From positions 1 through 54,545 of the forward strand of contig JAPKCA010000003.1 in the NCBI GenBank assembly GCA_028823145.1: a DNA stretch of 54,545 nt, in the 5' to 3' direction. This document shows, in pieces, positions 14,021 to 31,643 of this stretch. Both the position numbers and the translations under genes were made by a program. Position 1 is the first letter of the stretch. Every line of letters begins with the position of its first letter. The notes under the pieces were generated by a model. It had not been told where the DNA came from, searched no databases, and saw only the letters and a list, made by a program, of their open reading frames with translations. Origin of the DNA: Flavobacteriales bacterium. Lineage in GTDB: Bacteria > Bacteroidota > Bacteroidia > Flavobacteriales_D > Sanyastnellaceae.

Positions 14021-14998
14021 ATGAGATTTTTTACTGCGTCACTCGTTCTTCTTTTTACCCAGGCTTGCTGGGCACAATTTCCTTATGTGGGTAGCGACTT
14101 CACTGCCACCTATGTCGACTTAGACAACCCAACTATCCTAGATATCGAAGCTGGATGGGATGATCCTGAGCTCTCGTTCTCCCTTCCATTTGTATTTTAT
14201 TTAGCAGGAATACCTCTGACCGAACTAAACCTTGGGGGAGTTGGAGAAATGGTCTATGCTTTTGATGAAAATGGGTTGATTTCCGTTTTATGGCCATTGA
14301 ACATAGATGTCATGGATGTGAACTATCAGCTAGAGGAGGAATTCAGCACCATCCGACATCAAGTGGACGGCACCGCACCTGACCGTATTTTCAAAATGGA
14401 ATGGAACAATGTCGGATTGTATGAAGAACTTACTTACCTAGAAACGGCGGACGTTCGAATGAACTACCAAATGTGGCTCTACGAAGCAGACGGTATGATC
14501 GAATTCCGCTTTGGACCTGGATCCTTCGGTGAAGAATGGCTGAATGAATACAACTTGACTTCTGGAATCATTACGGACTTTGACTATAACAGTTATTCAG
14601 GAAATTTGTACACGGCAAGTGGCGACCCTTCAGCCCCTCAATGGTCAGAAAACGATAGCTTTGATTCTTGGTATTATGGAGTTGGATTTTTGAATGGCAC
14701 CCCCGAATCTGGTCAAGGCTACCGCTTTACGCAAGTTTCCACGGACATCGTGAATGCCGATCAAGCGACCGTTGACATGTTCCAGATTTGGCCAAACCCC
14801 AATACAGGATTCTTTTCTGTTGCCAATCAATCAAATGACCGTCAACAAATGCATCTACTAGATGCCCAAGGAAAAACGATCCAATCGTGGGTGATGGCTC
14901 CTGATAGCCAAACACCTGTGGCGTGCGAGGCCTGCAGTCCCGGACTCTATTTCATCCAGAATTCCAACGGCCAATCGCAACGATTGGTCATCCAATAA
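14021..14998 (+). CDS. Secreted protein with T9SS type A sorting domain
   Basis: Signal peptide; C-terminal FQIWPNPNTGFFSV...GLYFIQNSNGQSQRLVIQ. Confidence 0.85.
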   Translation: MRFFTASLVLLFTQACWAQFPYVGSDFTATYVDLDNPTILDIEAGWDDPELSFSLPFVFYLAGIPLTELNLGGVGEMVYAFDENGLISVLWPLNIDVMDVNYQLEEEFSTIRHQVDGTAPDRIFKMEWNNVGLYEELTYLETADVRMNYQMWLYEADGMIEFRFGPGSFGEEWLNEYNLTSGIITDFDYNSYSGNLYTASGDPSAPQWSENDSFDSWYYGVGFLNGTPESGQGYRFTQVSTDIVNADQATVDMFQIWPNPNTGFFSVANQSNDRQQMHLLDAQGKTIQSWVMAPDSQTPVACEACSPGLYFIQNSNGQSQRLVIQ

Positions 14999-15002
14999 GG
15001 AA

Positions 15003-18000
15003 TCAATGCTTCATCACGGGAACGCAACTGCGTTGACCTGACTTAAGCATTTCAACCAAGTAAATACCAGGCGACCAGGATGCAACATCCCAGGTTGTCT
15101 GGTATTTTCCGTTCATAGACTCTGATTGTATCAAACGACCTGCCGCATCCAAAACGCGCAACTCCACTCCTTCTGGACTGATGTGATTCAAACGGATGGT
15201 CAAGATCTCATTGGTTGGATTCGGGAACACCGAGAATTCCCCGGCAAGCAGGTCTTCCTGGATCGAAAGAACGGGCTCAAGCCCAATGGTGAAAACGCCT
15301 TCTTCTGGCAGGTCAACTAGAGCGGACCAGTAAGCTCCATTGTTCTGCAATGGATAGAACGAAGGAATGCTCCCCACTTCAAAATCCTCTCCGTCCTGAA
15401 CAATCACACCAAGGGCGGAGGTCGCAAACAATTCACACACTTCTGCATCCTCAAATTGCATGGTCACTGCTCCCACATCACCTGCGCCTTCAAAAGCCCA
15501 AGTTCGTGCCAAGCGGTCTGACAAAAATGGGTAGGACACTTCCACGGCCAAACCACCCCCATCGTGCCCCCAAAAGAGGTACTCACCATCTTCCAAGTCT
15601 TGCGGGTTACTCACCCGGACAACTCCAGTCCCTTGTGCATCTGAGTGCATATCCCATTCATTTTCGCGACCAATTCCAGCGACATCTTCAGCATAATCTG
15701 CTCTAAAGTAATGTTGAATGTTCCCCATAACCATGTCATAGCGAGCCGCGATGTAATTGGATACAATGGTGCGCTGAGATTCAAACAACCGACGATTGAA
15801 AATGAAATGTTCCGCAATCGCCCCTTCTCCAAATCGCTCATCGTAATCCCATCCATAACGGACCTCAACATTGGCCTCCTCCGCTCGAGCGCCGATGTTG
15901 GACCCGGGGAATGGAATGCGCAGGTCGTTGACAATGGTTTGGAAGTTTTGGTCCCAATCGGATTGATCGTAAATCACCCCATAGAATTGAGGCAAGGATG
16001 CATCCACAATCCAATACGGAGTGGCTTGCGCGTAATTGGACTCATCATCGATGACAACGGCCTGGAATGAACTCTGATTCGCGTATGGATGCAATATGAA
16101 TCCATTGGGCTGCCGTGCGCTCGCGATCCAACCGTGATCATTCCATGCCGTCTCGGCACCTTTGACGACGCTAAATGCCGAAATGCCTTGTTTCATCGGA
16201 ACCACCGGCGCGATGATGCAATCATCCACCCCATCAAACGAAATCGCTGGCCGGCCGTTGATACCATCGGCAATCCATTGAGGATGAGCCGCAGCATCAT
16301 CTTGGTATGCGGAAATAAAATTGCCCGACCATTCATCTCTCCATTCGCTGACCCCCGATTCTTCTGTTGCGGTCTCGCCTTGGTCATTAAACGCACCAAC
16401 ATCCCCACGTAACCAAAGGGTCAATGAACTTTCATCTCCCACTCCGCCTGGCCCCCAAGGACCAAATGCATCGGGAACAGGATGATAAACCAACCTCAAG
16501 GTGTCGGAACCTGAGTTGGGCAAAGCATAGCCCCCTACCTCCAAAGCCACTCCTTCTGGAACGACCAAATCGACTGGTCCAAATTCCATCGGATTGATTG
16601 TAAATGTGAATTGGGCACCTTCAGCTTGCAAATCTGACACCGTTCCATTAATTGCTGAAATGTCAGAGGCAATCAACGATTCCATGGACACATCATCCAA
16701 ATTGCGACGGAACACCAATTGAACCGAAGCAGGACCGTATATCGACGTTTCTCCGCTTGCTTGATTCAAGTACGCGATGGCGGGAAAACCTTGAGTCGCA
16801 CCGTGCACATCCGTTTCCCACATGCCTCTACCATAGGTTCCTGCCCGCAACCGGCTGGGATTCTGACTTCCTGAGCCTTGGTACAATTCCAATTCGGTGA
16901 CCCGCACATTGAGCGGCAAGCCTTCCGAGTAATCAATCCAAACCGAATCCGGATTGGACCAATAGTAGACCCCCATATCCGTGCCTGCATACACACCTCC
17001 CGTTCCTGTCGTATCGCAAACCACGGTATTGACAGAAACGCCGGGTAAATCGCCCTCCAATTCCACCCAACTCATTCCGAGATCCGGTGAATACCAAACC
17101 GAATTATTGAACCCGATGTAGACACTGGAGCTATCACCCATCACCGTCTCAATCGCCAAAACAGGCTGGGCGCTCAGAGGTAAATTAGCGCTCAGATCCA
17201 ACCAACTCACGCTATCCGCTTCCACCAATGCAGAATCACACCGGAAAAGCTTTCGGCTTCCTTCGGTAGCAAACAACGTGTGTTCATTGTGGCGATGGCG
17301 GTGCACAACCCGCATAGATGTCAAATCATTTCCCCCCAGTTCCGAGCTAATTCTTTCCCAAACAATGCTGTCCCGTACTGCGTGCTTGATGTTTCGGCTG
17401 CGCCACACGTTCTTCAATCCAACATACATCGTTTCTGAATCCTCTGGAGAAAGCACAAACGGGGTAGACCATGCTCCCCCCTCGTTGATACCCAATTCTC
17501 CATCCGCGACGATGGTTTGCGATTGAATGCCTGGTCCAGTCCGATAGACTCGGCCATATTGAGAACTCGAAAAGAACCACTCCGGATCGTTGGGGTCGTA
17601 GATGCATTCAAAGCCATCTCCCCCACTTCCGCGCGACCACTGCACACCATTGAATAAATACGTGCCGTTGTCTTGGTAGCCGTTCATGGCATGGGTGCCT
17701 GCGTGTGGACTTTGGCCAATCTTGTAAATCTCACCGGTCACAATTCCATTGCTCATGTCCTGCCATTGCTGGTTGTCTTCGTATCGGTAGACTCCACCAT
17801 CATTGGCCAACCAGATCTCATCCGTGTGTGGGTTGGCAACCAAAGCGTGTTGGTCAACATGCAAATAGCTATCCTGGATATCCAACCAGGTTGCGCCGCC
17901 GTCGTCCGAGCGTTTCATTCGAATGCCTCCGACGTATACCCGATCCACCACAACAGGATCGGCCTCTAAGCACATGTCATACCAAGCTTGTCCGCCTTCT

Positions 18001-19118
18001 TGATCTCCAGAAGCACTCCATGCCATGATGTTCGGGGTGTCACTCATTTCTTCAAAATTCAACCCCGTATCAGTCGATTTGAAAAATGCTCGGAACTCAT
18101 AAGTCCCAGCTGAAAGCACATAAACATGGTCCGGAGCAGCCGGGGAAACGGCAATGCACATCCGAGTACTGGGTTGAATCCCATCATTGATATACTCCCA
18201 ATCATCTCCCCCGTTTTCACTCCTCCAGAAACGTCCTTGTCCTGTGGCATACATGATGTCCGGATTGGTCGGATGAAAGCAAATATCCTTGTAATTCTGC
18301 GTATTCGATGAACACTGTGCCCACGTCGCCCCACCATCGCTTGACCGGTGCACACCGCTGTTGGTCGCCGCATAAATCAAATCTTCGTTTTCTGGATGAA
18401 CCAACAAATCGCCTACCACCAAATTGGCAATTCCTTCATTGACAAATTCCCAGTTAATTCCACCATCGGCGGACCTCATCACTCCCATACCTGGGCTATC
18501 TGAAGCGTCCCGATCACCCGTTCCGATATAAACCACCAGAGGATTGGAGGGTGAAATAGCAATGGAACTAACACCCAAGGTGGGCAATGCATCGGTGTTG
18601 GTTTCCCAATGCGCTCCTCCGTCATACGAACGCCATAAGCCACCTGCGGGCGCCCCTGCAAAAATGACCGCTTCGTCTGTTGGATGGAATGTTATGGCAT
18701 TCATGCGACCTACGCCACGGATGTTTTCGCGGGTGGTGACCTCCGTCAATGTCGGACCACAAACCTGCCAATTGCCATTGGGAGAGCGTCCAGCGTCTCT
18801 TCCTTGCAGAATTCTTCTGTGGGCATTCAAAGTGAACTCTGAACCCAAAGCCACCCCATCATCATCGGTTCGGCCATCCATCAAATGAAGCCACCGTTCC
18901 ACCTGTTTGTATCCCGAACCTTTGGTCCGTTCACGCCCCTCCCACTGCATTTCAAACACCGAACGAATCGCATCTGGGTTCGCATCGCTTTGCTGCATCA
19001 ATACAGACCAGTCAGGATCAGAATTCAATGGTTGTTGGGACAACAATTGCGTGTTGCAAACAGCCATTATTAAAACGAAAAAAAAGACGCGAAATGGGCA
19101 AGGAGGTGACATAAGCAT
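15003..19118 (-). CDS. Large T9SS-secreted protein: BNR/sortilin-like repeats + LamG-like domain + T9SS CTD
   Basis: Repeated SxDGGxxW Asp-box motifs (RSYDGGAHWE, RSADGGINWE, RSSDGGATWA, RSENGGDDWE, RSDDGGATWL), LamG-like segment (SLTLWLRGDVGAFND..), C-terminal FSVFPNPTNEILTIRL... Confidence 0.88.
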   Translation of the reverse strand: MLMSPPCPFRVFFFVLIMAVCNTQLLSQQPLNSDPDWSVLMQQSDANPDAIRSVFEMQWEGRERTKGSGYKQVERWLHLMDGRTDDDGVALGSEFTLNAHRRILQGRDAGRSPNGNWQVCGPTLTEVTTRENIRGVGRMNAITFHPTDEAVIFAGAPAGGLWRSYDGGAHWETNTDALPTLGVSSIAISPSNPLVVYIGTGDRDASDSPGMGVMRSADGGINWEFVNEGIANLVVGDLLVHPENEDLIYAATNSGVHRSSDGGATWAQCSSNTQNYKDICFHPTNPDIMYATGQGRFWRSENGGDDWEYINDGIQPSTRMCIAVSPAAPDHVYVLSAGTYEFRAFFKSTDTGLNFEEMSDTPNIMAWSASGDQEGGQAWYDMCLEADPVVVDRVYVGGIRMKRSDDGGATWLDIQDSYLHVDQHALVANPHTDEIWLANDGGVYRYEDNQQWQDMSNGIVTGEIYKIGQSPHAGTHAMNGYQDNGTYLFNGVQWSRGSGGDGFECIYDPNDPEWFFSSSQYGRVYRTGPGIQSQTIVADGELGINEGGAWSTPFVLSPEDSETMYVGLKNVWRSRNIKHAVRDSIVWERISSELGGNDLTSMRVVHRHRHNEHTLFATEGSRKLFRCDSALVEADSVSWLDLSANLPLSAQPVLAIETVMGDSSSVYIGFNNSVWYSPDLGMSWVELEGDLPGVSVNTVVCDTTGTGGVYAGTDMGVYYWSNPDSVWIDYSEGLPLNVRVTELELYQGSGSQNPSRLRAGTYGRGMWETDVHGATQGFPAIAYLNQASGETSIYGPASVQLVFRRNLDDVSMESLIASDISAINGTVSDLQAEGAQFTFTINPMEFGPVDLVVPEGVALEVGGYALPNSGSDTLRLVYHPVPDAFGPWGPGGVGDESSLTLWLRGDVGAFNDQGETATEESGVSEWRDEWSGNFISAYQDDAAAHPQWIADGINGRPAISFDGVDDCIIAPVVPMKQGISAFSVVKGAETAWNDHGWIASARQPNGFILHPYANQSSFQAVVIDDESNYAQATPYWIVDASLPQFYGVIYDQSDWDQNFQTIVNDLRIPFPGSNIGARAEEANVEVRYGWDYDERFGEGAIAEHFIFNRRLFESQRTIVSNYIAARYDMVMGNIQHYFRADYAEDVAGIGRENEWDMHSDAQGTGVVRVSNPQDLEDGEYLFWGHDGGGLAVEVSYPFLSDRLARTWAFEGAGDVGAVTMQFEDAEVCELFATSALGVIVQDGEDFEVGSIPSFYPLQNNGAYWSALVDLPEEGVFTIGLEPVLSIQEDLLAGEFSVFPNPTNEILTIRLNHISPEGVELRVLDAAGRLIQSESMNGKYQTTWDVASWSPGIYLVEMLKSGQRSCVPVMKH

Positions 19119-24604: not shown

Positions 24605-24645
24605 AAAAAAGGGCAGTTCCGGAATCAACCGGAACTGCCCTTTTT
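24605..24645 (+). terminator. Intrinsic terminator (probably bidirectional)
   Basis: 12-bp perfect stem GGGCAGTTCCGG-aatcaa-CCGGAACTGCCC flanked by A6 and T5 tracts. Confidence 0.9.
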
Positions 24646-25054: not shown

Positions 25055-25091
25055 TAAAAAAGTGAAGCATCTGCCGTTGCAGATGCTTCAC
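25055..25091 (-). terminator. Intrinsic terminator-like hairpin oriented to minus strand
   Basis: 13-bp stem GTGAAGCATCTGC-aacg-GCAGATGCTTCAC followed (minus strand) by TTTTTTATTTC. Confidence 0.7.
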
Positions 25092-25262
25092 TACGATTCA
25101 CAACTAGGTCCTCCAAGAACAAATTGTTCATGACCTAAAATCAAATATAATCAGTTTGACTACATATTCAAATAATTCATCGTTTTTTATTGAGCCCCCA
25201 TCGGCATTCAGGCGCTTTAAATACTCTCCTATAACACCCAACAATGATTGATGCTCGGACAT

Positions 25263-25276: not shown

Positions 25277-26500
25277 ATGTCCTCCAAGACTCGTATTGCC
25301 CTTTTACATCTCTGCTCTGTGATGATTTTTTCATTGCAGAATGCACCCCTGTCCGCTCAATCAGTCGTCAATGAATGGTCAGAAATGATTTCCAATCGGG
25401 TGCAACGTGCCGACTTGATCGCGTTTGAAGAGTGCCAGCCACAGTGGTTGGTACCCAACTTAAAACCGAAATTAAGATCAACGGTTCCCGAAATGGATCC
25501 GTTGGAATTGGCTTTGCAAGCTTGGACCACTGACTTGGAGTTGGAAAACGAATGCGTCCAAGCCTTGATCTCGAATGGGATGGAACGGTGGCAAATCCTT
25601 CAATTGTTGAGAGGGTTGTATGGAATTGATATCGAATTGGCCCTTTCCGAAGAGGATGTTCCTCCATCGTTTCAGTGGCTGCCCATTCTACTCTCCGGAT
25701 ATGACCATGCTTTTGAGGGGACCTCTGAAAAAAAAGGTCTGTGGCACCTTTCTGTTGAAGACAGTGAGAAATTCGGTTTGCACCTGAACGAAATGACCGA
25801 TGACCGGATGCTTGCCTTCGAAGCAACTGCTGCTGCTACTGAAAAAATCAGACGTCTATCTCGGCGCTTTCCCCAATCGCCAGAAAGAACCTTGGTCGCA
25901 TATGTCAAGGGCATGGCGTTCGCGACGCGATGGTCAGGAAAACCGGGGTTCGATCGGGATCTAGACCAATGGTTGACCCTATACCGTGTGGTTGCAAGGT
26001 TGATGGTTAATATAGAGTCGACCCCTTTCGATATGGCTTGGGGACAATGCTTGGCCCAATGGGAACCCATAGCCTACCCAGGTCGAATTCATCGCGAAGC
26101 ACTTTTCAATGTTTTGGGTATGACTCCAACCATTCAGCATGAATTGCTCCCTTGGTGGACCGGTGAAAAACTATCCGAACTCGAATTTGACAACTACGCA
26201 CCCCTATTACCGGCGCGTTGGGCGCTCTTATGGAACAATCGAATAGATCAATTATCGGCTTGGACAGCAGGTTCCGAGCTCACGGTCAATGACAGTGAAT
26301 CGCCAAACTATCCTGTCCAAACACCTCTTACAGAAGCCTCATACGATCCCTGCATCCTTTATGAAGTAAAGGCAGGTGATACGTTGTGGAATATTTCGCA
26401 AAGACACAAAGGCACGACTCCTGAAAACTTGGCCGAAATCAACAACATTGTGGACTACATCCGCATTGGCCAAATCATCTGCATTCCAAAAGCGGAATGA
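25277..26500 (+). CDS. LysM protein with degenerate lytic-transglycosylase-like (SLT) domain
   Basis: Signal peptide (MSSKTRIALLHLCSVMIFSLQNAPLSAQ); SLT-like PPSFQWLPILLSGYDHAFEGTSEKKGLWHLSVEDSEKFGL; C-terminal LysM YEVKAGDTLWNISQRHKGTTPENLAEINNI...IRIGQIICIP. Confidence 0.82.
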   Translation: MSSKTRIALLHLCSVMIFSLQNAPLSAQSVVNEWSEMISNRVQRADLIAFEECQPQWLVPNLKPKLRSTVPEMDPLELALQAWTTDLELENECVQALISNGMERWQILQLLRGLYGIDIELALSEEDVPPSFQWLPILLSGYDHAFEGTSEKKGLWHLSVEDSEKFGLHLNEMTDDRMLAFEATAAATEKIRRLSRRFPQSPERTLVAYVKGMAFATRWSGKPGFDRDLDQWLTLYRVVARLMVNIESTPFDMAWGQCLAQWEPIAYPGRIHREALFNVLGMTPTIQHELLPWWTGEKLSELEFDNYAPLLPARWALLWNNRIDQLSAWTAGSELTVNDSESPNYPVQTPLTEASYDPCILYEVKAGDTLWNISQRHKGTTPENLAEINNIVDYIRIGQIICIPKAE

Positions 26501-28077
26501 ACCGGGCTCCTCATCCCATCCACCAAACCCTTTTATTCTTCCTCTCGGTTGGAACGTTGAGTGCACTTTTCATGTTGCGGCCCGCATCATGGGATTTTAT
26601 TGAATTTCCAAGGTGGTCTCACCTGTTTGAACCCTCAGAAAAGGAGATCAAACCTGAAGATATTTCCCTGCTTCTGGCGGCTTATTCCGACTCGGTCATC
26701 AGCCACTCCAATGATCTTACCACGCCCTTGGATTCGTTGAACCCGATGCCGAAAGATTCATTATCGTTTCGTGGTTTAGATGTCATTAGAAGTGAGGAAA
26801 TCGAAGCGACGGTTCTCGTAAACACCCATGTTCATACGCGATATAACCGATCGCCTCCAACGGACATTCATGAAAATATCGTCCTGCGAGGAACTCCCAA
26901 ATCCTTTGAACTTCTCGGTCGGTTTTTCGAACAATTGGACACCGTTGTGCGGACGAGTTCCTTGCATGTCTTGCATTTTGGCGATTCCCAAATCGAGGGG
27001 GACCGGATGACTTCATTTATCCGTCAAGCATGGCAAAAGAGATGGGGAGGCTCGGGACCGGGTTTCTTATCCCCTATTCCGACTAGCCCATCGCTTGCCA
27101 TGAAACAATCATGGTCAACCGGTTGGAAACGCCATGCGCGTTATGGGAAAAGGGACACGACGATCGGGCACAATCGATATGGAATGCTTGCCTCCTTTGC
27201 AACACATGCCACGGATAACCCTGAAGCAACAAATGCTTGGTTGGAATTCCGACCAAACCTAGCTTCCTATTCCAGCACCAGAAAAGCAGAAGTGGCCACC
27301 CTCCTACTGGGACAAACCGCCTCAACAGGAACAGTTAAGTGTTATCGAAATGAGCATCTTATTGCTTCGCTGCATCTTCCCGATGATAGCATCCATGTGG
27401 AAATTCAAGTGGATCTAATGGACAGCCTTAAATTCACAGACTCATCCTTTGAAAACATCCGCTTTGAATTCGAAGGAACCGTTCCAGAGGTTGACGCCAT
27501 TGGATTCAGCTCTAAATCCGGGGTTGTCGTTCACAACATTGGCATGAGAGGCAGCTCCGGGACTTTGTTTCGTCAGCTTGACCGCACGCAACTGACCGCA
27601 CAACTTCGAGCCCAAAAAGTAGGGTTGGTCATCCTGCAATTTGGTGGAAATGCCGTTCCATACATTGCTGACAGCTCCGCCGTTGAACGATACGGCCATT
27701 GGTTCGCTTCTCAAATCAGACTTTTCAAACAAATCCTTCCAGATACCCCAGTCTTGGTCATCGGACCTTCCGATATGTCCACGAAGGTGGAGAATCAGTT
27801 TGTGACTTACCCCATGCTTGAATTGGTGCGAAGTGCCATTTCAGAAGCGGCATGGAAAGAAGATGCCTTGTTTTGGGACGTTCTACAAGTGATGGGAGGC
27901 AAAGGGTCAATGGCGGCATGGGTGACCAGTGAGCCGCCGTTGGCCAGTTCTGATCACGTGCATTTTACATGGCGCGGAGCAAAGCACATCGCGCAATTGC
28001 TTGATCAAAGCATTGATGCCGAATGGAGCATGTGGAAAGATTGGAAGACCAAGAGCATCGAGAATCCAACTCCATGA
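26497..28077 (+). CDS. SGNH/GDSL-hydrolase-like protein 1
   Basis: N-terminal TM anchor; block I LHVLHFGDSQIEGDR; GGN block LVILQFGGNAVPYI; C-terminal SSDHVHFTWRGAKHIAQLL (DxxH). Confidence 0.8.
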   Translation: MNRAPHPIHQTLLFFLSVGTLSALFMLRPASWDFIEFPRWSHLFEPSEKEIKPEDISLLLAAYSDSVISHSNDLTTPLDSLNPMPKDSLSFRGLDVIRSEEIEATVLVNTHVHTRYNRSPPTDIHENIVLRGTPKSFELLGRFFEQLDTVVRTSSLHVLHFGDSQIEGDRMTSFIRQAWQKRWGGSGPGFLSPIPTSPSLAMKQSWSTGWKRHARYGKRDTTIGHNRYGMLASFATHATDNPEATNAWLEFRPNLASYSSTRKAEVATLLLGQTASTGTVKCYRNEHLIASLHLPDDSIHVEIQVDLMDSLKFTDSSFENIRFEFEGTVPEVDAIGFSSKSGVVVHNIGMRGSSGTLFRQLDRTQLTAQLRAQKVGLVILQFGGNAVPYIADSSAVERYGHWFASQIRLFKQILPDTPVLVIGPSDMSTKVENQFVTYPMLELVRSAISEAAWKEDALFWDVLQVMGGKGSMAAWVTSEPPLASSDHVHFTWRGAKHIAQLLDQSIDAEWSMWKDWKTKSIENPTP

Positions 28078-29354
28078 AATCTTTCTACGTTCATCCAAAA
28101 GCATGGTGTTGCTGGGTCATTATCATCCAATATGGGTTGATCGCTCCCCTCTCTATTGGACAAGTTGAAAACGACCGTGTCAGTTCTGTAGATTCAAATG
28201 TCGTCTGGGTCATTCCTCATGCCCAATCCCCGTTCGAGAATCTCTGGGCGACCATGGATTCATTGGCCAATCGCAATGAAGGGAGCCTCCAGTGTCTATA
28301 TGTTGGAGGATCCCATGTACAAGCTGGCTGGATTGGTCATGGCCTGCGTAAGCGTTTTTCGAATTGGGTATCCAAAAGCGATGAATCGCGGGGACTGATG
28401 CTCCCCTATCGTATGGCCGAGACCAACACCCCTACTCATTTCAGAAGTGAGATTGAAGGCCGCTGGGAAACGAACAAGTGCACTTCAAGCAGATCACTCC
28501 CGCCTTTTGGAGGAACAGGAATACGCGTCACCACCCGAGAGGATCAGGCAAAATGGCAGCATGTCGCCATTCGCCCGGACTCTTCGCTTTTCACCTGCAC
28601 AGAAATCGAAGTCTGGGGACGTGCTTCGGGATGCAGCCCCAAATGGAACGGCACCTCGACACCCGCAATCCGTTCGATACTACCCGATCAAAGGGGATGG
28701 CTCTTTCAATTTGAAGAGCCCGTTGACACGGTAGCTTTCTGCTTGGAAGCGAATGGGCACGGCCCTATCCAATTCGATTTGTTTGGAATGCTTGCGAAAA
28801 CACCACAACCCAACGGACCGAAATTCACCATGCACGAATGGGGACACAATGGAGCTAAGATGGAACACGTTCTACGATGTGAAGGGCTTGGTGAATCATT
28901 GGGTTCTATGGAGCTGGACTTGATTCTCATTGGGATCGGCATCAATGACGCTCATGCTGGCGGCTTGCAATGGAATCCCGTTGACTTCGAAAGTGAATAC
29001 GATAGCCTCATTCACACGATCCGACTTACAAAACCTCTCGCTGCCATCGTACTTCTGACCAACACCGACTCGTTTCGCAAGCGCATGAATCCGGACACGA
29101 ATGCCTTGAAAATTCGTGACGTGCTTTTAGGATTGGCCAAAAAACATCGCCTCGGCGTATACGACATGGGAAAGGCCATGGGAGGCTTAGGTTCTATTCA
29201 ACGGTGGCATGAATTGGGATGGGCACAGGATGACCTGATTCACTTCACTGAAGAGGGGTATGACCAATTGACTCAGTTGATTTTCAATTCATGGCGAAAA
29301 GCCTATGCTGAGAACAACCATTCCGCCCTTCCATTCAAACGTCCCCAGCCTTGA
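28074..29354 (+). CDS. SGNH/GDSL-hydrolase-like protein 2
   Basis: LQCLYVGGSHVQAGWIGHGLRKRF (GDS to GGS), LILIGIGINDAHAGG (GxND), DDLIHFTEEGYDQLTQLI (DxxH). Confidence 0.77.
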   Translation: MKSFYVHPKAWCCWVIIIQYGLIAPLSIGQVENDRVSSVDSNVVWVIPHAQSPFENLWATMDSLANRNEGSLQCLYVGGSHVQAGWIGHGLRKRFSNWVSKSDESRGLMLPYRMAETNTPTHFRSEIEGRWETNKCTSSRSLPPFGGTGIRVTTREDQAKWQHVAIRPDSSLFTCTEIEVWGRASGCSPKWNGTSTPAIRSILPDQRGWLFQFEEPVDTVAFCLEANGHGPIQFDLFGMLAKTPQPNGPKFTMHEWGHNGAKMEHVLRCEGLGESLGSMELDLILIGIGINDAHAGGLQWNPVDFESEYDSLIHTIRLTKPLAAIVLLTNTDSFRKRMNPDTNALKIRDVLLGLAKKHRLGVYDMGKAMGGLGSIQRWHELGWAQDDLIHFTEEGYDQLTQLIFNSWRKAYAENNHSALPFKRPQP

Positions 29355-31042
29355 TGGATTGGTTTCTATATGACCCAGGGGCTCCGCTCAATTTTATGCG
29401 CCCAGCATTTTGGGCATTTCTATTCTGCGTCTTGGCAGGGTTTGCTTTGCTCGAGCGGAAGATTGCCATGCGCAATGCATTCTTGTTTTTAGTCAGTCTG
29501 TTTTTCTATTGGAAAACAAGCGGATTCTTTGTGCTCATCTTGCTTTTTTCAACGGTTTCAGACTGGCTGATTGGTCATCGAATTGGCCATTCTGAAGGCA
29601 ACCGAAGGAAAAGCTGGCTCGCACTGAGTTTGACGCTCAACTTGCTCTTGCTGCTCTATTTTAAATATGCTTATTTCTTTGCTGACAGCATCAATCCGCT
29701 CCTTGGAACACACTGGAATCCAGCGCATATACTAAACCCATTATCAACGATTTCTTTTGGGTCTACCATCCGGTTCGAACGGATTCTTCTTCCCGTAGGA
29801 ATATCGTTCTACACATTTCAAACCATGTCATATGCCATCGACGTGTACCGGAAAGACTTGGCTCCGGTTAAAAGCATTCTCGACTTTGGCTTTTTCGTGA
29901 GTTTTTTCCCTCAATTGGTTGCCGGCCCCATCGTTCGAGCGAAGGATTTTATTCCTCAAATCATGCGTCCATACTCCCTTTCCAAAGCGGGGTTTGGAAT
30001 GGCCCTTTTTTGGATTCTCAACGGAATCCTTAAAAAAGTTTGGTTGGCGGATTATGTGGCTACAAATCTGGTGGATCGAGTGTTTGCCAATCCTTCAAGC
30101 TACACCGGATTCGAAAACCTTCTCGGGCTCTATGGATACAGCCTTCAAGTGTACGGGGATTTCAGTGGCTATACGGATATCGCCATCGGCATCGCTTTGT
30201 TAATGGGTTTTCATTTGCCCATCAACTTTCGTTCTCCATATAAGGCAAGGCATGTCGGAGAGTTCTGGAAACGCTGGCATATCAGCTTATCCAGCTGGCT
30301 CAAAGATTACCTCTATATCCCCATGGGTGGAAACCGAAAAGCCACTGCATTTACATGGATCAGCGGGCTCTTTTTCTTTGGCTTCTTCTGCCTGCTTGCT
30401 CCATCCGTTGGATGGATCCTACTGGCCTCGGGATTGATATTTTTTTGCTGGGCGGCGGCGGCGGCTTTCCCATCCTTTCAAAAACGAATCAGCACCAACA
30501 TCAACATCCTCATGACCATGCTGATTGGCGGATTGTGGCATGGGGCAAGTTGGAACTTTGTGCTATGGGGAGGGTTGAATGGACTGGGGCTGTTGGTCTA
30601 CAAATCATGGCGAAAATGGAGTCCTTGGGAAAAGAAAGACCGGTGGTGGAAACATGGAATAGGCATCCTCATTACATTCCACTTCATCACTTTTACCCGC
30701 ATTTGGTTCCGATCTGGAAGTCACACAGATTGGTCCAGCATTGGCACGCCTCATGACTTATGGCAGGAGTGGTTTGCAGCCAACAGCATGATTGCACAGT
30801 TGACTCAAGCATTCTGGAACAGTCCATTTTTAGAAATCCTCTGGGGATACCGTCAAGTGCTAGGGGTTGTAGCGTTGGGCTATGCGATACACATGCTGCC
30901 TGAAAGGTGGAAAGCTTCTTACCGTTCCACTTTTGCCAACAGCGGGTTTTTCTTACAGCTCCTGATGACCATTGCAGTCATTGCAATCGCATGGGCCGGC
31001 ATGAGTGCTGGACTGCAGCCGTTCATCTATTTCCAATTTTGA
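29354..31042 (+). CDS. MBOAT family membrane-bound O-acyltransferase (AlgI/PatA-like)
   Basis: VGISFYTFQTMSYAIDVYRKD, YGDFSGYTDIAIGIALLMG, RWHISLSSWLKDYLYIPMGGNRK, LIGGLWHGASWNFVLWGGLNG with the conserved His. Confidence 0.96.
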   Translation: MDWFLYDPGAPLNFMRPAFWAFLFCVLAGFALLERKIAMRNAFLFLVSLFFYWKTSGFFVLILLFSTVSDWLIGHRIGHSEGNRRKSWLALSLTLNLLLLLYFKYAYFFADSINPLLGTHWNPAHILNPLSTISFGSTIRFERILLPVGISFYTFQTMSYAIDVYRKDLAPVKSILDFGFFVSFFPQLVAGPIVRAKDFIPQIMRPYSLSKAGFGMALFWILNGILKKVWLADYVATNLVDRVFANPSSYTGFENLLGLYGYSLQVYGDFSGYTDIAIGIALLMGFHLPINFRSPYKARHVGEFWKRWHISLSSWLKDYLYIPMGGNRKATAFTWISGLFFFGFFCLLAPSVGWILLASGLIFFCWAAAAAFPSFQKRISTNINILMTMLIGGLWHGASWNFVLWGGLNGLGLLVYKSWRKWSPWEKKDRWWKHGIGILITFHFITFTRIWFRSGSHTDWSSIGTPHDLWQEWFAANSMIAQLTQAFWNSPFLEILWGYRQVLGVVALGYAIHMLPERWKASYRSTFANSGFFLQLLMTIAVIAIAWAGMSAGLQPFIYFQF

Positions 31043-31316: not shown

Positions 31317-31643
31317 ATGGAACCAATGAGCAAAACTGGCCTTCTACAGGCCACATTAGTGGGTGTTGTCCTGCTGCAAGTACTCTTCCTTTGGGATGTC
31401 ATTCCAGGTCTATGGACACCTGATATCATGGCTCATATTTTGGAATCCATGCTCCCGGTCCGGGGAGTCATCATGTTGGTTGAACTGTTTGGAATCGCCG
31501 TGCTATTTGTCGATGTCGTCACCCGGTTTGATGAATTAAATCCCAAATGGAAAGTACTGCACTGTATAACTGTCGCAGCTTGCATGATCGGCTATATCCT
31601 GCAATTCTTTGTTTATTTCCTCGACAGCGCGTACCTCGAATGA
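31317..31643 (+). CDS. Hypothetical membrane protein
   Basis: Three hydrophobic segments; not assignable by eye. Confidence 0.6.
   Translation: MEPMSKTGLLQATLVGVVLLQVLFLWDVIPGLWTPDIMAHILESMLPVRGVIMLVELFGIAVLFVDVVTRFDELNPKWKVLHCITVAACMIGYILQFFVYFLDSAYLE

Follow-up and report, generated by a model that had tools for sequence, protein, structure and literature searches.

A probable O-acetylpeptidoglycan operon of Bacteroidota led by a predicted pseudo-lytic transglycosylase gene

Four consecutive genes in a Flavobacteriales genome (Sanyastnellaceae; assembly GCA_028823145.1) encode a LysM protein resembling lytic transglycosylases (LTs), two SGNH proteins and an MBOAT, which raises the question of what such a set may do in the cell envelope, and why an LT-like gene leads it. 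The window analysed comprised 54,545 nt of contig JAPKCA010000003.1. A sequence-only reading had proposed an envelope O-acylation machine following MBOAT-SGNH logic, and this is well supported by the shuttle motif of the MBOAT, the assignment of both SGNH proteins to the Ape1 family and the conserved synteny of the locus. We propose that the locus is probably a Bacteroidota O-acetylpeptidoglycan (OAP) operon with a docking pseudo-LT.

Inspection of the open reading frames and of the sequence itself confirmed the four genes at 25277-31042, with all three junctions overlapping, exactly as the sequence-only reading had placed them. Gene 1 (LysM/LT-like, 25277..26500, forward strand as are the other three) encodes a signal peptide, an MltD-like lytic transglycosylase fold and a C-terminal LysM domain, with an in-frame ATG at 25244 as a possible alternative start. 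Direct reading of the sequence showed that it shares an ATGA (26497-26500) with SGNH1 (Ape1b-type, 26497..28077), which shares a second ATGA (28074-28077) with SGNH2 (in the Ape1c position, 28074..29354), while a TGATG stop/start overlap (29352..29356) joins SGNH2 to the MBOAT gene (PatA, 29354..31042). A strong bidirectional terminator-like hairpin 3′ of the metzincin gene (24606..24645, 17-bp stem, T tracts on both strands) is the probable upstream operon boundary. A second strong hairpin (25061-25092), with a T tract on the minus strand, also lies between the metzincin gene and gene 1, and an Rfam and tRNA search upstream of gene 1, hairpins included, gave no match at gathering level. The neighbours scanned were housekeeping genes (Hsp90, TerB-DnaJ, metzincin, MeaB and HisRS), with no glycan synthase or exopolysaccharide genes among them. 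Elsewhere in the window, proteins with type IX secretion C-terminal sorting domains, which are typical of Bacteroidota, are encoded at 15003-19118 (minus strand) and 14021-14998 (plus strand), one of them with a Sortilin-Vps10 domain.

The MBOAT matched PF03062 in Pfam (1.7e-22) and also DltB structures (3e-26), although the latter match is at the level of the fold family only and DltB identity was rejected. It contains FWKRWH with His309 (30278-30280) and GGLWHG with His396 (30539-30541), and terminates in the acyl-shuttle motif FIYFQF (31022-31039) with Tyr559. The FxYxxF pattern forms the C-terminus in 109 of 120 MBOAT homologues, the Tyr being invariant where aligned. In PatA, the Tyr of the same motif is auto-acetylated and passes the acetyl group to PatB (PMC12148441). 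The MBOAT thus has the features of PatA, namely the MBOAT fold, FW(R/N/K)RWH, the catalytic His and the C-terminal FxYxxF with its invariant Tyr, and since the shuttle motif is located on the MBOAT itself, a DltX-like microprotein is not needed. Directly 3′ of the MBOAT gene a small membrane protein of 108 aa is encoded (31317-31643), which is kept in the genus and in some family members; it has no Pfam match, was considered as a DltX-like partner, and is a possible accessory subunit.

SGNH1 and SGNH2 are both members of the Ape1 family. SGNH1 has a predicted N-terminal TM helix (residues 7-26), a disordered linker (68-122) and an SGNH domain with a beta-rich, CBM35-like insert; its GDSL_2 match (1.6e-7) is just under the Pfam cut-off, and SGNH2 matched GDSL_2 with 3.8e-9. 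The SGNH1 profile matched Neisseria meningitidis Ape1 (4k3u, 1.6e-34), and its model matched Campylobacter jejuni Ape1 (8gkd, 6.5e-23, TMt 0.78), the Ape1 proteins of these two species being the best structural matches (TMt 0.78-0.80). For SGNH2 the profile matched 4k3u across residues 60-414 (8.7e-40), hence the SGNH tetrad and CBM35-like insert of Ape1 were recognised by profile and model in SGNH1, and by the full-length profile only in SGNH2. The catalytic sets are Ser164 (26986-26988), Gly352, Asn385, Asp486 and His489 in SGNH1, and Ser80 (28311-28313), Gly260, Asn291, Asp387 and His390 in SGNH2. In 150 SGNH1 homologues the Ser, Asn, Asp and His are invariant and the block II Gly is present in all but one, and the SGNH2 residues are conserved in 112 homologues with a single exception (Lys for Asp).

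Neither protein could be assigned to PatB (DUF459), as the PF04311 match of SGNH1 was below the cut-off (0.013) and SGNH2 had none, and a profile comparison with a PatB structure gave only 0.28. In PatB structures block II has Ser/Asn, a Gly there being typical of hydrolases; with this Gly kept in SGNH1 and SGNH2, neither bears the PatB transferase hallmark. No separate PatB-family gene was found in the window genome and 59 relatives, apart from weak PF04311 matches of SGNH2 homologues. The PatA/PatB logic suggested from the sequence alone therefore stands for the MBOAT, which is a PatA with FIYFQF, but not for the SGNH proteins. As these are of the esterase-type Ape1 family rather than PatB, the locus probably encodes an acetylation/deacetylation pair, and not acylation alone.

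The SGNH1-SGNH2-MBOAT core is a known system, the OAP cluster, which was named together with its order ape1b-ape1c-pat in Bacteroides thetaiotaomicron, B. fragilis and Porphyromonas gingivalis, and is preceded in Bacteroides by a gene for cation efflux (Weadge, Pfeffer and Clarke 2005, PMC1199599). In a B. finegoldii record, an RND efflux system is followed by two SGNH proteins (463 aa and 305 aa) and an MBOAT ending in QPFIYFQF, a layout consistent with the published cluster. The window repeats this order of the three families, with the MBOAT adjacent to the Ape1-family SGNH genes; the QPFIYFQF C-terminus is identical to that of B. finegoldii, and in profile comparisons SGNH1 matched the first and SGNH2 the second SGNH protein of that species (2.6e-67 and 7.6e-38). 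Unlike the published clusters, a LysM/pseudo-MltD gene leads the operon here and overlaps ape1b. Furthermore, SGNH2 has 426 aa and retains a segment of about 100 aa after motif I, whereas Ape1c has 305 aa and lacks this insert, so that SGNH2 is Ape1c by position only and outside the Ape1c subfamily. The PatA-PatB-Ape1 system of Neisseria and Campylobacter (PMC12148441) likewise has a PatA-type MBOAT with the acyl-shuttle hexapeptide and an Ape1-family SGNH with a CBM35-like insert, but here two Ape1-family proteins replace PatB and Ape1, and the gene order is reversed. The OAP (pat/ape) cluster, published in 2005, is thus closer than the AlgI/AlgJ/AlgX logic to which the locus had been likened from the sequence. 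Membership of the AlgI/AlgJ/AlgX group was rejected, as SGNH1 and SGNH2 have the canonical S..G..N..DxxH order and housekeeping neighbours, with AlgJ/AlgX being circularly permuted (H-S-G-N), and Wss membership was ruled out by the same SGNH order and neighbours.

The four-gene arrangement is not a product of chance. Within the genus, 18 loci contain the set, and the LysM-SGNH1-SGNH2-MBOAT series is complete and in the same order in 16, the other two being cut by contig ends. Because the flanking housekeeping genes are conserved in the genus too, stronger evidence comes from other families, where five loci (L052, L053, L055, L057 and L058) have kept the four genes without those flanks. In three genomes of the genus (G015, G016 and G020, of which G016 is only 63% complete) SGNH1 and SGNH2 were undetectable with an MBOAT remnant at most, a pattern pointing to loss of the cluster as a unit. 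The dN/dS values of the LysM gene, SGNH1 and MBOAT were approximately 0.03-0.27. Named relatives (L070-L149) were found with an SGNH1 alignment, a contig scan with a single SGNH2 giving none, and belong to Flavobacteriales, Bacteroidales, Marinilabiliales, Prolixibacteraceae, Cyclobacteriaceae and others. Maribellus luteus (L141) and Phaeocystidibacter luteus (L097) are among those with the complete four-gene operon. Among 150 distinct SGNH1 genes, a set enriched for similarity to the window, 109 had enough flanking sequence; MBOAT was downstream in 96 of these and the LysM gene directly upstream in 54, with all four genes in order in 46 and a LysM-SGNH2 fusion in five, so that synteny, for which the sequence-only reading had suggested a survey across Bacteroidota, is conserved. 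In an even draw of the phylum SGNH1 was present in 40/198 genomes, and on our reading of the neighbourhoods a separate LysM/LT gene occurs in three of the 40 and a LysM-SGNH2 fusion in four. These counts indicate that what the clusters share is SGNH1 with the MBOAT, whereas the LysM protein is accessory; most distant OAP loci lack gene 1, and the chemistry can therefore do without it. Rearranged loci were also seen: six loci from genomes of family f27 have the order SGNH1-MBOAT-SGNH2, with an MBOAT tail of PIYLQF instead of FIYFQF, and in two from family f26 SGNH1 is followed by two tandem MBOAT genes.

Which of the two SGNH proteins transfers the acetyl group is the first point on which readings diverge. 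Based on sequence comparison, SGNH1 is likely to be the transferase in place of PatB, and we think that SGNH2 would be the esterase. SGNH2 is present in 39/60 relatives, and two genomes, both 97% complete (G023 and G034), have SGNH1 and MBOAT without SGNH2; in many loci of the phylum SGNH2 is absent, located 3′ of MBOAT, or on the opposite strand. The persistence of SGNH1 and MBOAT without SGNH2 argues for SGNH1 as the obligate MBOAT partner. The reverse assignment, with SGNH2 as acetyltransferase and SGNH1 as esterase or scaffold, is unlikely but draws on the observation that the only PatB/DUF459 matches in the 60 genomes, eight of them over the cut-off, are on SGNH2 homologues and none on SGNH1. 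Against this, SGNH1 adjoins MBOAT in many loci from which SGNH2 has gone or moved away, it is SGNH1 that resembles PatB in topology, with a TM anchor and a long linker, and the LysM fusions involve SGNH2, as would fit an esterase that roams the sacculus. Such fusions, with one or more C-terminal LysM domains on the SGNH2 homologue, were seen in five loci (L064, L180, L182, L183 and L186), where the separate upstream LysM gene is absent.

Gene 1 matched LysM in Pfam (PF01476, residues 362-404, 26360..26488; 2.8e-13), with matches below the cut-off to SLT (8.5e-4, 19.3 bits versus 21.3) and to the MltD NCBIfam (3.3e-8). Its AlphaFold model (pLDDT 89) had as best PDB match the Pseudomonas aeruginosa MltD with LysM (8rhf, 6e-9). 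Alignment to MltD placed Leu139 (codon 25691-25693) at the catalytic Glu and Val210 (codon 25904-25906) at the Asn of the AYN motif, hence the two hallmarks of an active MltD are missing and the label of pseudo-transglycosylase in the sequence-only reading was apt. Gene 1 therefore shares fold and LysM architecture with MltD (P. aeruginosa 8rhe/8rhf, and the C137 MltD of the window genome), but differs in the loss of Glu and Asn and in its location in an OAP operon. In 66 MltD-like sequences, drawn mostly from these loci, Glu was kept in 17, all with AYN (or SYN), and lost in 49, none of which has the Asn. With the Glu column left out of the alignment, the resulting tree separated the two groups by one branch (SH-aLRT 92, a quick method, and not a starred branch), with Glu and AYN-Asn lost in 49/49 of the gene 1 clade and kept in 17/17 of the other. 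Two other MltD relatives in the window genome (C137 and C156) kept Glu and grouped with the Glu clade, and in five sampled genomes with a pseudo-LT (G261, G262, G264, G265 and G266) another MltD relative, encoded away from the OAP locus, scored higher. Where the OAP locus of a sampled genome carries a Glu-bearing gene, the best match was of about the same length as that gene, the pairing being made on frame length rather than on names, and that gene is probably the main full-length MltD there.

The gene 1 reading frame is intact and has a dN/dS of 0.10-0.26, indicating that purifying selection keeps the pseudo-LT, as a retained pseudoenzyme rather than a decaying gene. With the cutting residue lost, gene 1 probably steers the acetylation machinery instead of cutting. 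We propose that it may be a peptidoglycan-binding pseudoenzyme which docks or stimulates the acetylation/deacetylation pair, based on the LysM domain, the non-catalytic MltD fold, the operon position, the LysM-SGNH2 fusions elsewhere and the precedent of N. meningitidis LtgA, an LT that binds and stimulates the peptidoglycan O-acetylesterase Ape1 (PMC7083599). LtgA is a catalytically active, Slt-type enzyme, whereas gene 1 is a predicted inactive MltD fold and a candidate partner. It is rather improbable that gene 1 is still lytic with a relocated acid, or an unrelated neighbour without a part in acetylation: lytic transglycosylases can use Asp (PMC7083599), Asp143 of gene 1 is four residues from the Glu position, and some Bacteroidota carry a full MltD with Glu at the same place, but Asp143 is Asn in most relatives, leaving the site without any conserved acidic residue, the AYN Asn is lost as well, and where gene 1 occurs, it mostly overlaps or directly adjoins SGNH1. 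No description of such a fourth gene, or of a pseudo-lytic transglycosylase with LysM, was found in the open-licence PMC literature searched, which is weak evidence for novelty.

Peptidoglycan as the likely substrate, also suggested by the sequence-only reading, was strengthened by the MltD/LysM partner, the Ape1-family SGNH proteins and the lack of exopolysaccharide genes among the scanned neighbours, and is what we infer here. That the machine instead acetylates another envelope glycan (exopolysaccharide, capsule or LPS O-antigen, as AlgI/J/X or Wss) is quite improbable, for although alginate, cellulose and secondary wall polymers are also served by MBOAT-SGNH pairs and the acceptor of such a pair is not evident from sequence, the neighbours lack a glycan synthase, both SGNH proteins are Ape1-family with canonical rather than permuted order, and the LysM/MltD partner points to peptidoglycan.

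In the proposed OAP pathway, the MBOAT (PatA) would load acetyl from cytoplasmic acetyl-CoA onto Tyr559 of its FIYFQF tail, and this tail would carry it to the membrane-anchored periplasmic SGNH1, most likely the transferase replacing PatB, which would place it on the C-6 hydroxyl of MurNAc. SGNH2, as an Ape1-like esterase, would remove the acetyl group, and gene 1 may bind glycan or septal peptidoglycan and dock or stimulate the SGNH proteins instead of cutting.

The Bacteroides OAP clusters are listed without PatB, yet O-acetylation amounts to 69% of the peptidoglycan in B. fragilis, and to 27% in B. thetaiotaomicron (PMC1199599). The transferase of Bacteroidota was not named in the open-licence literature searched, and SGNH1 stands out from the genome comparisons as the obligate partner of the MBOAT. 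More tentatively, the locus could represent a PatB-less Gram-negative route, in which an Ape1-fold SGNH transferase is combined with an inactivated LT as a subunit of the acetylation/deacetylation complex that reads the glycan, or has a positioning or activating role. What sets this variant apart, and merits testing, is the pseudo-LT partner together with a core of SGNH1 and MBOAT that lacks PatB. O-acetylation of MurNAc blocks both lytic transglycosylases and lysozymes, and an acetylating gene set which includes a dead LT thus suggests a way in which cells could position or recognise this mark.
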